The translations under genes and the position numbers were made by a program. The notes beneath the pieces were generated by a model. It made no database searches. It was not told the origin of the DNA and saw nothing but the letters and a program-made list of their open reading frames with translations. From the IMG/VR virus record IMGVR_UViG_3300005617_000205, positions 1 through 39,881 of that record: a DNA stretch of 39,881 bases; one strand, written 5' to 3'. Below are positions 9,637-39,460 of this stretch, one piece after another; position 1 is the stretch's first letter; each line of letters opens with the position of its first letter. This stretch comes from a virus.

Positions 9637-9839
9637 CGACAGAACAAAAACTAAAGGAACTGAAAATCATCAACGAGAAGATTGAAGAGATTGAGGAGAA
9701 TCTCGAACAGCTTCAAATCGAAAAGCCATTTGCTCTTGAGATCGATGAAAACGATAAAGAGACACGGTCTATTCTGATCACTCATTACGAGAATCGGAGA
9801 GAGAAAATTATTAATACGGCTAAGGAACTAATGAAGTAA
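9633..9839 (+). CDS. Small coiled-coil protein
   Basis: 68 residues, almost entirely a charged heptad-like helix (LKELKIINEKIEEIEENLEQ). It overlaps the previous stop by ATGA. It lies 24 bases upstream of the first DGR target gene. It is shorter than typical Avd proteins and I see no reason beyond position to link it to the retroelement. Confidence 0.55.
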   Translation: MTTEQKLKELKIINEKIEEIEENLEQLQIEKPFALEIDENDKETRSILITHYENRREKIINTAKELMK

Positions 9840-9862
9840 TAAACTTTTAAACCACAGTAAAT

Positions 9863-10306
9863 ATGAAAACAATGGAAGTACAAATCCCTTTCGTAATACC
9901 GAACGGGTTCGAAGTAGATAGCTTCGATTTGAAATCCTTGAAATTGAAATTAAAGGAAAAGCCGAAAGATGTAAAAGAGCGCATCAAAACCGTTGATGAT
10001 CTTCTTGCTGATCACGGCTACACGCAAGAACGGTTTGATCAGTTAAGCAAAGATTTGTCTTCAGACGAAAAAGCATACCGCTTACTGAAGTTGCTCACGC
10101 TGTCACTCAATGAAGGATGGTTTCCTGATTGGGACAATAGCAGCCAGCCAAAATACTATGCTTGGTTCTATATGGGCGGTTCTTCCGGCTTTCGGTTTCT
10201 CGACTACGTTGTTTGGGCACTCGTATTCGGATGTCGGCTCTCGCCTTTGCTTCAAAAGCAGCGAGCTAGCAACGCACGCAGGGAAACACTTCACAGAAGT
10301 TTATAA
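9863..10306 (+). CDS. DGR target protein 1, frameshifted inside its variable repeat
   Basis: As read, 147 residues. The N-terminal two thirds is helical. YYAWFYMGGSSGFRF then enters the variable repeat. After TGG the VR has GCAC where the template has AAC, a one-base insertion. This shifts the frame and gives a Gln/Arg-rich tail ending at 10306. If the extra base is removed, translation continues in the frame ending at 10325 as VGSRLCFKSSELATHAGK and onward, matching target 2 closely. So the intact family architecture is helical N-domain, variable segment, conserved SRLCF region and C-terminal helix. No signal peptide. It may be an inactive variant, a homing by-product or an assembly error. 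Confidence 0.8.
   Translation: MKTMEVQIPFVIPNGFEVDSFDLKSLKLKLKEKPKDVKERIKTVDDLLADHGYTQERFDQLSKDLSSDEKAYRLLKLLTLSLNEGWFPDWDNSSQPKYYAWFYMGGSSGFRFLDYVVWALVFGCRLSPLLQKQRASNARRETLHRSL
10174..10254 (+). repeat. Variable repeat 1 (VR1)
   Basis: 81 nt aligned to the template at 10746-10825 with one inserted base. I count 13 substitutions outside the indel and all fall on template adenines (to G, T or C). The flanks diverge from the template just outside these limits. The segment encodes GSSGFRF plus the diversified residues. Confidence 0.88.
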
Positions 10307-10330
10307 ACAATTCATGTCAATCTAATCACT

Positions 10331-10723
10331 ATGAAAAATTTCAGCGACTTAAAAACGTTCGAAGATGCTTGCAAGGTTGAGCGTCTTGACCCAAAGAAAT
10401 CAATTCCTGATTTCAAAGCCTTTGCACCAAAAGACAGAAAGGCAATGATTGCACACACCAAACTTGTGATCATTGTGAGGGCTGCAAATCGATTGGCCAA
10501 CAAAGGCAAAGCATGGAAGCCTGATTGGAACAATAACCAGTGGGACAAATATTATCCTTGGTTCTGGATGCAGGGCGGTTCTTCCGGCTTTCGGTTTGGC
10601 GACTGCGATTATTGGGACTCGGCTTCGAAGGTCGGCTCTCGCCTTTGCTTCATCTCGTCAGATGTAGCAACGCACGTGGGCAAGCAATTTGAGAAGTTGT
10701 ATAAGGATTATTTCACACTTTAA
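10331..10723 (+). CDS. DGR target protein 2 (variable protein)
   Basis: 130 residues, intact. The N-terminal 80 residues are helical and basic. KYYPWFWMQGGSSGFRF follows, then the variable stretch GDCDYWDSASK, then VGSRLCFISSDVATHVGKQF and a final helix LYKDYF. I recognise this architecture as a family of small variable proteins seen in Bacteroidota genomes and phages. The variable segment is internal rather than at the extreme C-terminus. It lacks a signal peptide or tail-fibre features, so it is probably cytoplasmic. Binding target unknown. It is tandem with a frameshifted paralogue and directly upstream of the template repeat. Confidence 0.85.
   Translation: MKNFSDLKTFEDACKVERLDPKKSIPDFKAFAPKDRKAMIAHTKLVIIVRAANRLANKGKAWKPDWNNNQWDKYYPWFWMQGGSSGFRFGDCDYWDSASKVGSRLCFISSDVATHVGKQFEKLYKDYFTL
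10573..10652 (+). repeat. Variable repeat 2 (VR2)
   Basis: 80 nt, colinear with the template without gaps. I count 13 substitutions at template adenines (A to G most often, also T and C) and one at a template T (T to G). Of 20 template adenines seven are unchanged. A 5-bp hairpin, CATCT-CGTC-AGATG, lies at 10651-10664 straddling its 3' edge. Confidence 0.9.
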
Positions 10724-10745
10724 AAGAACAGGTTGTGCGGTGGTT

Positions 10746-10825
10746 GGGCGGTTCTTCCGGCTTTCAGTTTAACGACTACGATAATTGGAACTCGAATTCG
10801 AATGTCAGCTCTCACCTATGCTAAA
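10746..10825 (+). repeat. DGR template repeat (TR)
   Basis: Non-coding 80-nt repeat with 20 adenines, concentrated in five AAY (Asn) codons when read in the target frame. AAY codons are typical of DGR templates because adenine mutagenesis of them gives wide residue choice without stops. Its last codon in that frame is TAA, where both VRs have TTC. It lies 22 bp after target 2 and 100 bp before the reverse transcriptase, the usual TR-RT order. Confidence 0.92.
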
Positions 10826-10925
10826 GACTTACTATCGCAGACCTTGCCTCTTGGCAAAAAATAACGTGAACAAAATCTAAGGCGTTGGTAGCGCAAGCGA
10901 ACGCGACTTATGAAAAGCAAAGGCA
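10826..10925 (+). ncRNA. TR-RT spacer, likely part of the DGR template RNA
   Basis: The 100 nt between TR and RT start contain two hairpins: TTGCC-TCTT-GGCAA, and a stem GCGTT (10882-10886) with AACGC (10900-10904) enclosing GC-GCAA-GC, a GNRA-type tetraloop. In characterised DGRs the RNA downstream of TR is needed for priming and reverse transcriptase binding. This stretch would fill that role here; that is inference from position and structure. Confidence 0.5.
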
Positions 10926-11879
10926 ATGAAAAGAATAGGCAACATATACAATGAAATTACCAGCCTGAAAAACATTCAGGACGCTGATGCGAAAGCGCAG
11001 AAAGGCAAAGCCACTCAATATGGAGTAATGCTCCACAACAAAAACAGAGAGGCCAATCTATTTGTATTGCAAGACAAGCTGATCAGCAAAACTTACCAGA
11101 CTTCGCGATACGATATTTTTAACATCTTCGAACCGAAGGAGCGAACGGTTTACCGTTTGCCTTACTTCCCTGATCGCATCACTCACCACGCGATCATGAA
11201 TTTACTTGAACCAATCTTTGTGAGCACATTCACAGCCGATACTTATAGCTGCATTAAGAGGCGTGGCATTCATGCATTGCTCTATAAGTTGAATGCAGAT
11301 TTGAAAGACTTAGACGGCACGCAGTATTGCCTTAAATTCGATATAAAGAAATTTTACCCTAGCATCGATCATGATGTGATGAAGGGATTGCTAAGAAGAA
11401 AATTCAAAGATCAGGATTTGCTTTGGCTGCTTGATGAGATCATTGACAGTGCACCCGGTCTTCCAATTGGAAACTACCTAAGTCAATACCTGGCTAATTT
11501 TTACCTCTCTTATTTTGACCATTGGATCAAAGAGCAAAAGCGAGTGAAGTATTATTATCGCTATGCTGATGATATTGTTATTCTCCATTCGGACAAGGCC
11601 ACACTTCACACGCTGCTTGCTGAAATCAAAACCTATCTACACGACCTGAAACTTGAAGTGAAAGAAACTCATCAGGTCTTTCCAGTAGAAGCTCGCGGCA
11701 TTGATTTCGTTGGGTATGTCTTCAGGCATTCGCACGTCAGAATCAGGAAGACAATTAAAAAGAGCTTCGCCCAAAAGCTCGCACGAAATCCAAACCATGC
11801 TTCGAAAGATTCATACCTCGGATGGCTCAGTCATTGTGATGCAAAACACTTAACCAAAAAACTACTAGCACATGCATAA
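10926..11879 (+). CDS. DGR reverse transcriptase
   Basis: 317 residues, compact, with no maturase or endonuclease extension. The palm motifs are visible: KFDIKKFYPSID (about 137-148, first catalytic Asp D139), LPIGNYLSQYLAN (179-191), where SQ replaces the QG of most bacterial reverse transcriptases and is typical of DGR enzymes, and YRYADDIVIL with YADD at 213-216. The enzyme copies the TR RNA with errors at adenines, and the cDNA replaces the VR in the target genes. It overlaps the next gene by 8 bases. Retron and group II intron enzymes are excluded by the short length and the TR/VR context. Confidence 0.95.
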   Translation: MKRIGNIYNEITSLKNIQDADAKAQKGKATQYGVMLHNKNREANLFVLQDKLISKTYQTSRYDIFNIFEPKERTVYRLPYFPDRITHHAIMNLLEPIFVSTFTADTYSCIKRRGIHALLYKLNADLKDLDGTQYCLKFDIKKFYPSIDHDVMKGLLRRKFKDQDLLWLLDEIIDSAPGLPIGNYLSQYLANFYLSYFDHWIKEQKRVKYYYRYADDIVILHSDKATLHTLLAEIKTYLHDLKLEVKETHQVFPVEARGIDFVGYVFRHSHVRIRKTIKKSFAQKLARNPNHASKDSYLGWLSHCDAKHLTKKLLAHA

Positions 11880-12171
11880 TAACTTTAGCGACTTCAACAT
11901 TAAGGCAGAAGTAAAAAATTTCAGTGGCGATAAAATCCCGGCAAAGAAGATTCTTAATCTTGAGATCAAGGTTCTCGATTTCAAAATTGAGCCATCGAAA
12001 TTATACGATGGAACAGATTGTCTTTACCTGCAAATTGAAAAGAGTGGAGAGAAGCGTGTTGTGTTTTCAGGATCAAAAATTTTGATGAATCAAATCAAGC
12101 GTGTGCCTGAAGGTAAATTTCCTTTCACTACAACGATCAAGGGAGATAATGACTATTACGAATTCACCTGA
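11872..12171 (+). CDS. Small protein linked to the DGR reverse transcriptase
   Basis: 99 residues, start inside the RT gene (8-base overlap). It is predicted beta-rich, with NLEIKVLDFKIEPSK, DCLYLQIEKSGEKRVVFSGS and FPFTTTIKGDN. It resembles small proteins I have seen next to similar reverse transcriptases in Bacteroidota phages, but I cannot name a family. It does not look like Avd, which is a four-helix bundle. It might be a nucleic-acid-binding accessory factor; this is speculative. Confidence 0.6.
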   Translation: MHNNFSDFNIKAEVKNFSGDKIPAKKILNLEIKVLDFKIEPSKLYDGTDCLYLQIEKSGEKRVVFSGSKILMNQIKRVPEGKFPFTTTIKGDNDYYEFT

Positions 12172-12503
12172 TGCCAATTGATTATAAAGAATATCATCCT
12201 AAATGGACGCTGATTGTTCGGCTGATAAGATTACGCACGATCAAGAACAATGGCAAAGACTGTTGCGAAGGTTCTCCTGCATTTCCTGATTGCAGAGCAG
12301 AAAATTATTTACCTCATCCGATTACTGGCAGCAAAGTAGTATTGACAACCGCTCACATTGATGGTGACAAAGACCATAATAAATTTTTCAATCTCGGAAG
12401 ATGGTGTCAACGCTGTCACCTTACGCATGATATTGGGCATCACGTGATGAATAGAAAATACGGAAGGCATCATAGTCGCAAACATCAATTGAAATTATTA
12501 TGA
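12171..12503 (+). CDS. HNH endonuclease-like protein
   Basis: 110 residues. It contains KVVLTTAHIDGDKDHN then NLGRWCQRCHLTHD and a His-rich tail. The AHIDGD histidine, the NL-x-x-x-C-x-x-C motif (C79, C82) and the later histidines match the beta-beta-alpha metal fold of HNH nucleases. A second Cys cluster (C31, C32, C41) may form the zinc site. Many phage HNH proteins act in packaging or as mobile nucleases; here it is in the early operon near the DGR, so the role is open. It may have lost activity, since the motif is somewhat divergent. Confidence 0.65.
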   Translation: MPIDYKEYHPKWTLIVRLIRLRTIKNNGKDCCEGSPAFPDCRAENYLPHPITGSKVVLTTAHIDGDKDHNKFFNLGRWCQRCHLTHDIGHHVMNRKYGRHHSRKHQLKLL

Positions 12504-38668: not shown

Positions 38669-39460
38669 ATGAATATAAAAACACCAATCAGTTACTATGG
38701 AGGGAAGCAAAGACTTCTCTCCACCATCCTCTCCAAAATTCCAAAACATAAACTCTATTGTGAGCCGTTCCTCGGAGGTGCGGCTATCTTCTTTGGCAAA
38801 GAGCCGAGCGAAGTGGAAGTGATCAATGACACAAACAAAGAGCTGATAAACTTCTATCGCATTTGCAAAGAGAAATTCCTAGACCTTCAAACTCTGGTAA
38901 GGATAACGCTTCACAGTCGCACCGCTCACCGCGATGCTAAAATCATTTATGAGAATCCTCACCTCTTCAGCGATGTTCACCGAGCATGGGCTGTGTGGGT
39001 TTTGAGTTCGCAGAGCTTCAGCGCAATGCTGGACGGAACTTGGGGTTATGATAAATCCAAACGAACAACAACAACTAAGATCACCAATAAGCGCGAGCAG
39101 TTCACGGAGGATTTGGCCATCCGCTTACAGGGTGCTCAAATCGAATGCGCTGATGCTTTATACATCATTCAGAGCAGGGATGCAGCAGATAGCTTCTTTT
39201 ATTGTGATCCTCCTTACTTCAATAGCGACTGCGGCCATTATGATGGTTATACAATTGAAGACTTTGAGCAGCTTTTAAAGGCTCTCAGCGAAATCAAAGG
39301 AAAGTTCCTGCTAAGTAGTTATCCATCGCCATTACTCATGAGGTGGGCCAAGCAAATGGGCTGGCATCAATGGAGTTTGGAGACTGGAGTGAGCGTGAAT
39401 AACAAGAGCGGCTATCTCAAGCGCAAAGTCGAAGTATTGACGGCCAATTATGAAATATAA
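38669..39460 (+). CDS. D12-class adenine-N6 DNA methyltransferase (Dam-type)
   Basis: 263 residues. Motif I is YCEPFLGGAAIFF (30-42); catalytic motif IV is DPPYF (180-184); the opening SYYGGKQRLL is the typical N-terminus. It methylates adenine in a short site, perhaps GATC, to protect the phage from restriction. It lies last before the right end, exactly where Mu keeps the modification gene mom. An 8-bp hairpin occupies its leader and a structured element follows it. Confidence 0.85.
   Translation: MNIKTPISYYGGKQRLLSTILSKIPKHKLYCEPFLGGAAIFFGKEPSEVEVINDTNKELINFYRICKEKFLDLQTLVRITLHSRTAHRDAKIIYENPHLFSDVHRAWAVWVLSSQSFSAMLDGTWGYDKSKRTTTTKITNKREQFTEDLAIRLQGAQIECADALYIIQSRDAADSFFYCDPPYFNSDCGHYDGYTIEDFEQLLKALSEIKGKFLLSSYPSPLLMRWAKQMGWHQWSLETGVSVNNKSGYLKRKVEVLTANYEI

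Follow-up and report, generated by a model that had tools for sequence, protein, structure and literature searches.

What would a phage diversify with a diversity-generating retroelement (DGR) placed among its early genes? This question is raised by IMG/VR record IMGVR_UViG_3300005617_000205, whose 39,881 nucleotides are referred to below as the window. An original prediction made from the sequence had proposed that the early region of this Mu-like phage carries a two-target DGR and that its targets may be intracellular proteins. The best explanation of our results, to which we give a probability of about 0.7, is that a complete DGR serves here to diversify a dedicated pair of paralogous phage proteins that are not part of the virion and whose variable loop would bind a variable host protein.

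The DGR of the window and its adenine-specific divergence

The window contains a genuine two-target DGR in the early region of what appears to be a Mu-like phage, as predicted: two target genes, each with a variable repeat (VR), a template repeat (TR) and a reverse transcriptase (RT) lie together on the + strand. The TR (10745-10825) comprises a core (10771-10803) followed by a segment (10804-10821) resembling IMH*, the altered form of the initiation of mutagenic homing (IMH) sequence, and it has the same sequence in a close relative, L005. VR2 (10573-10652) has its mutated core at 10598-10630 and an IMH-like segment at 10631-10648. Compared with TR positions 10746-10825, it shows 13 mismatches at TR adenines and one at a non-adenine. 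Seven of the 13 fall within the mutated core, and the remaining ones correspond to a CAG to CGG change 5' of the core, three differences of the IMH/IMH* type and two changes beyond the IMH. The three IMH/IMH*-type differences are fixed in nearly all relatives (GTCGGCTC.CGCCTT in the VRs, GTCAGCTC.CACCTA in the TR). Using a sequence motif that distinguishes the IMH-like segment of the VRs (GTCGGCTCTCGCCTTTGC) from the IMH*-like segment of the TR (GTCAGCTCTCACCTATGC), 278 VR-type, 112 TR-type and 5 mixed motifs were counted in the related loci. VR1 (10173-10251), delimited by gapped alignment to the TR and comparison with L005, shows about 12 adenine mismatches together with a one-base insertion near 10215, at an adenine pair (AAC in the TR, GCAC in VR1). 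The original prediction had counted 13 mismatches in each VR, all at adenines; the adenine bias stands, with the reservation that one VR2 mismatch is not at an adenine and that part of the differences are fixed IMH differences. VR1 is not the plain adenine-mismatch repeat that had been described, the insertion having been missed.

The mutated codons are AAY, GAY and TAY, and therefore random bases at the adenines cannot give stop codons. The TR has no further match in the window, where the closest candidates show at least about 29 non-adenine mismatches of 60; this agrees with the earlier claim that the tail fibers carry no VR. The RT (10926-11879, 317 aa) matches Pfam RVT_1 (1.8e-20) and phrog_1423 (6.7e-116). 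It contains the motifs IGNYLSQ and YADD, which are of the DGR type ((I/L/V)GxxxSQ and YxDD), and its nearest relatives are DGR RTs, with identities of up to 56% to those of crAss-like phages.

Across 127 distinct related cassettes, the VRs differ from the TR at 70.3% of TR adenines versus 0.22% of other positions, the latter value being a lower bound since the search accepted no VR with more than one non-A mismatch in 50 bases. Comparisons between near-identical phages are free of this filter. The window and L005 are 99.5% identical; of their 25 differences over 5,085 bp, 20 fall into the two VRs, which together cover 180 bp (Fisher p 1.5e-25). Likewise, L043 and L040 show 24 differences in the VRs versus one outside over 3.8 kb, and L054 and L059 show 17 versus five over 8.4 kb. 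In some close pairs (L010/L011, L013/L057) the VRs are identical. Variation between related phages, as anticipated by the original prediction, is thus strongly A-specific and concentrated in the VRs, and this turnover can be read from the sequences as an indirect sign of mutagenic retrohoming. We also observed that in four near-identical phages from four samples (L043, L040, L044 and L052) the upstream VRs differ while the VR of a third, TR-proximal target is identical; retrohoming may prefer some copies, or selection on the third target may be stronger.

The target family and its genomic context

Target 2 (T2, 10331-10723) is an intact protein of 130 aa and the TR-proximal paralogue. Target 1 (T1, 9863-10306) is frameshifted inside VR1 in this copy: because the VR1 insertion shifts the frame, this open reading frame (ORF) lacks the conserved VGSRLCF C-terminus, and the true C-terminus lies in the +1 frame up to 10325. 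The T1 profile match is accordingly split in two (9851-10303 and 10089-10322), and the orthologue in L005 (4015-4464) is intact. Another target, L223:10342-10736, is apparently frameshifted within its VR as well. Overall, 380 target ORFs are intact and six are shortened, one of them at a contig edge. Both targets match phrog_11581, a family of unknown function (3e-19 for T2 and 3e-9 for T1), and no family was found for them by sequence searches of Pfam, NCBIfam and the PDB. A search of BFVD with T2 gave unnamed phage proteins only. When the VR was masked, T1 and T2 sequences separated into two clades, first-position and TR-proximal, with every one of the 39 and 42 sequences in the expected clade (support 0.9), and the pair is therefore an old duplication that was kept. 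The scaffold of both proteins is conserved and variation is confined to the loop, a pattern that, judged from sequence, is as expected of a binding protein facing a variable partner. The VR segment of T2 resembles the end of CLec tail targets with a common TR.

The family is widespread. A scan of IMG/VR with T2 returned 77 loci, mostly in the order target 1-target 2-TR-RT. A scan of bacterial genomes with a query set closer than all 77 targets returned 79 loci, all in Bacteroidota and their close relatives (Chlorobi, Ignavibacteria), with an RT in 42; the isolates among them include Yeosuana, Flavobacterium, Muricauda, Elizabethkingia, Apibacter and Pedobacter. In total, the 127 distinct cassettes (target 1-target 2-TR-RT-p99, the last gene being described below) belong to Bacteroidota phages and prophages, 100 having two VRs and 18 having three, and the window virus infects Bacteroidota. 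In addition, a lone target-1-like gene lies among chromosomal genes of Tenacibaculum with no RT nearby (L220 and L221, about 9812-10264); it is possibly a prophage remnant or a gene adopted by the host.

In the window, MuA/MuB, the portal and the terminase were named from sequence and gene order, and 24 bases separate the start of T1 from the stop of the early gene before it. In all 20 Mu-like loci where both MuA/MuB and the head genes are visible, the cassette is found between them, while its position relative to GemA varies. The GemA match of the window is weak (Pfam, E 0.05); the gene order recurs with homologues in relatives and resembles that of Hankyphage. In two non-Mu phages (L013 and L175), the neighbor of the cassette is a large early gene of primase-like type. 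No match to a strict Bacteroidota promoter pattern was obtained in the first 13.4 kb of the window. At the other end, the last ORF (38669-39460) looks from its sequence like a DNA adenine methyltransferase.

Some relatives of the targets have no RT nearby and lie in two types of operon. The first contains AAA_23/SMC-like, RecT, metallo-beta-lactamase, target, p143 and DUF2303 genes, and the second phrog_3657, target and YqaJ exonuclease genes. The idea that these relatives are not diversified was rejected, because for nearly all of them the record contains a matching TR at another place. The RT was located elsewhere in 18 of the 30 records searched, and of the 17 records that could be tested, 16 have a TR next to this distant RT that fits the target VR with 0-2 non-A mismatches over 51 bases; where both are on one contig, TR and target are tens of kilobases apart. 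No TR matching the target was found in L237, and no recognizable VR motif in L081. In LoVEphage, an induced Bacteroides prophage, a single TR fits both a tail protein (39641-40960) and a family member on the other strand (57015-57599), where the latter is grouped in one block with RecT and methyltransferase genes. Because of these remote TR-VR matches and of LoVEphage, we consider the family to be a recurrent non-tail target of DGRs. The intracellular nature proposed for the targets is likewise supported by the replication, RecT, YqaJ and primase operons in which their relatives are found, and a search for the family in other phages, a check suggested with the original prediction, places it mostly in early regions or recombination operons.

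A candidate accessory factor, p99

The original prediction had overlooked p99 (11872-12171, + strand, phrog_19665), a predicted OB-fold protein whose gene overlaps the RT stop and travels with the RT. It was found in 45 of the 48 RT loci of a first scan, where two of the three loci without it are cut or broken, and in all 80 loci retrieved with p99 itself, which are close relatives and not independent. By a scripted rule, p99 is adjacent or fused to the RT in 155 of 169 RT copies; 11 copies were listed without p99, most of which have a p99 overlapping the RT more than the rule permitted, and L032, L055 and L224 seem to be without it. In one viral contig (L049:8773-10227) RT and p99 form one open frame, a natural fusion. 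A fused p99 also occurs in several tail-type DGRs and in Hankyphage (E 8e-20), and crAss-like RTs show a weak match of this kind. In ANMV-1 and vir525, both archaeal viruses, p99 comes after the RT. In LoVEphage (L246:41477-43020), three annotated ORFs make up the RT, a split already known from Quimbyvirus, and p99 ends the last piece.

The AlphaFold model of p99 is a confident barrel (predicted local distance difference test, pLDDT, 89.5) whose order of elements, with a helix between strands 3 and 4, fits an OB fold. OB domains, including SSB and PriB, make up most of its best structural matches, with Z scores of at most 6.5 and no Foldseek E value under 0.001, and sequence searches of Pfam, NCBIfam and the PDB gave no family. 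The known accessory protein bAvd (PF22296) was not found in the window or in 25 other records, and the window ORFs neighboring the RT had no Avd match. The BPP-1 control was positive, with Avd present and no p99. Taken together, linkage, fusion and fold indicate that p99 is likely an accessory factor doing the job of Avd in this lineage. Paul et al. (PMC4372165) drew an Avd ORF in ANMV-1, which might be the p99 homologue or another ORF.

Function of the targets and comparison with known systems

In the explanation that we favor, the RT would copy the TR RNA and insert random bases at adenines, with p99 probably acting as its nucleic-acid-binding partner in place of Avd. In either target gene, the cDNA would then take the place of the corresponding stretch upstream of the IMH, which alters about eight codons of a single loop and leaves the scaffold fixed. 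T1 and T2 would be expressed with the early and replication genes and would function inside the infected cell or the lysogen, presumably in the cytoplasm, where the variable loop would most likely bind a variable host protein met early, for example a defense protein or a DNA-processing nuclease. Since the genes are located in early regions or recombination operons, a host factor met after entry is the most likely partner; Gam-type proteins of recombination operons provide an analogy for the binding of a nuclease-type host factor. In relatives, the family is the second, distant target of a tail-fiber DGR, and therefore one TR would diversify both a virion protein and a cytoplasmic one.

Three other explanations were weighed. 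T1 and T2 could be small virion proteins, such as adhesin tips, decoration proteins or injected proteins, whose genes lie apart from those of the tail and whose diversification still serves receptor binding. Most phage DGR targets are tail proteins (PMC8144416), the LoVEphage TR serves a tail protein as well as a family member, which implies a common type of hairpin as the source of the loop, and the L061 target weakly matches the end of the tail-protein family phrog_5302 (E 2e-4). However, this last match is limited to the VR-like segment and would be explained by a common TR. The early, replication or recombination-operon position recurs in three unrelated phage architectures, and the short spacing between T1 and its early neighbor and the opposite-strand block of LoVEphage also speak against virion genes, so that we hold this alternative to be unlikely. 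Slightly less probable still is that the targets work in the phage's own recombination or retrohoming machinery, the loop altering DNA or phage-protein partners. Such a role is suggested by the RecT, YqaJ, metallo-beta-lactamase, AAA_23/SMC-like and primase genes in the neighborhood and by the fact that the family is DGR-linked nearly everywhere tested, but hypermutation is hard to square with a fixed internal partner and only the loop of the otherwise conserved scaffolds varies. As for a decaying or selfish remnant devoid of selected function, we give it very little credit: the T1 frameshift and the loss of the RT block in L005 are what it would predict, whereas two-target cassettes remain intact across many phages, with few shortened target ORFs, non-A positions are almost unchanged, and VRs have turned over recently between near-identical phages.

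Several observations nevertheless weigh against the explanation that we favor. A small phage protein may belong to the virion even when it has no export signal. No fold match was found for the T2 model in the PDB (Foldseek, VIA), and this model is mostly helical with a VR loop of pLDDT under 50; because of the missing match and this low score, no function can be derived from the structure. In L061 and L226 the target is present and no RT was found in the record, which is perhaps incomplete. L005 keeps both targets and the TR and is devoid of the whole RT-p99-HNH block (L005:5070-5500 versus window 10942-12500), its GemA-like gene beginning directly after the first 17 bases of the RT; it is either a natural RT-less derivative needing an RT in trans or a mis-assembly. 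With T1 broken in the window, the individual element may thus be partly decayed or affected by assembly. Finally, Benler et al. (PMC6199706) reported that phage DGR targets are generally without signal peptides.

A more specific proposal, which we put forward tentatively and would not expect to hold in full, is that dedicated hypermutation of this cytoplasmic pair tracks host defense or nuclease proteins and that p99, an unrecognized OB-fold protein, replaces Avd in a DGR lineage of phages and archaeal viruses. Phage DGRs have so far been read almost wholly as receptor-switching devices. More than 100 cassettes sparing the tail, together with the family as distant second target of tail DGRs, suggest that phages hypermutate a post-entry interaction too, and the binding partner of the second target becomes a testable question. 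As a likely accessory factor, p99 could explain how these DGRs dispense with Avd, and it offers an entry point for their reconstruction in the laboratory.

That a phage may diversify an intracellular protein is not a new idea, since two studies precede it. Benler et al. 2021 (PMC8008677) described a second Quimbyvirus target that is non-structural, lies among methyltransferases and was called without precedent, and they already suggested that such a hypervariable protein takes part in the conflict between phage and host. In a Nature 2025 study (PMC12629997), a second, distal VR close to counter-defense genes was described for four species of gut prophages. The LoVEphage family member lies in a block of this kind. 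It belongs to the same family as T1 and T2 and is non-structural in context, but Quimbyvirus and LoVEphage use one TR for a tail protein and one distant gene, whereas in the window type no tail protein is targeted, two or three targets lie in tandem and the DGR forms a cassette of its own in the early region. Hankyphage p00 (PMC6199706) is also a Mu-like phage of Bacteroidota whose RT has a C-terminal p99 domain; unlike in the window, its VR is located terminally in a very large protein encoded in the late region, and no T-family target was detected in it at significance. The BPP-1 DGR (mtd-avd-TR-brt) shares the RT, TR, A-specific VR and IMH/IMH* logic and differs by having Avd (PF22296) and no p99. 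The DGRs of crAss-like phages, described as lineage 3 without avd (PMC7290462), have the closest RTs, the same target-TR-RT order, no avd and an RT with a C-terminal p99-like extension; in contrast to the window, their target is a tail-collar fiber and their p99 is fused and divergent rather than a separate gene. Compared with these systems, what differs here is a DGR without a tail target, with a conserved target pair, which Mu-like phages and others carry as a dedicated cassette among their early genes.
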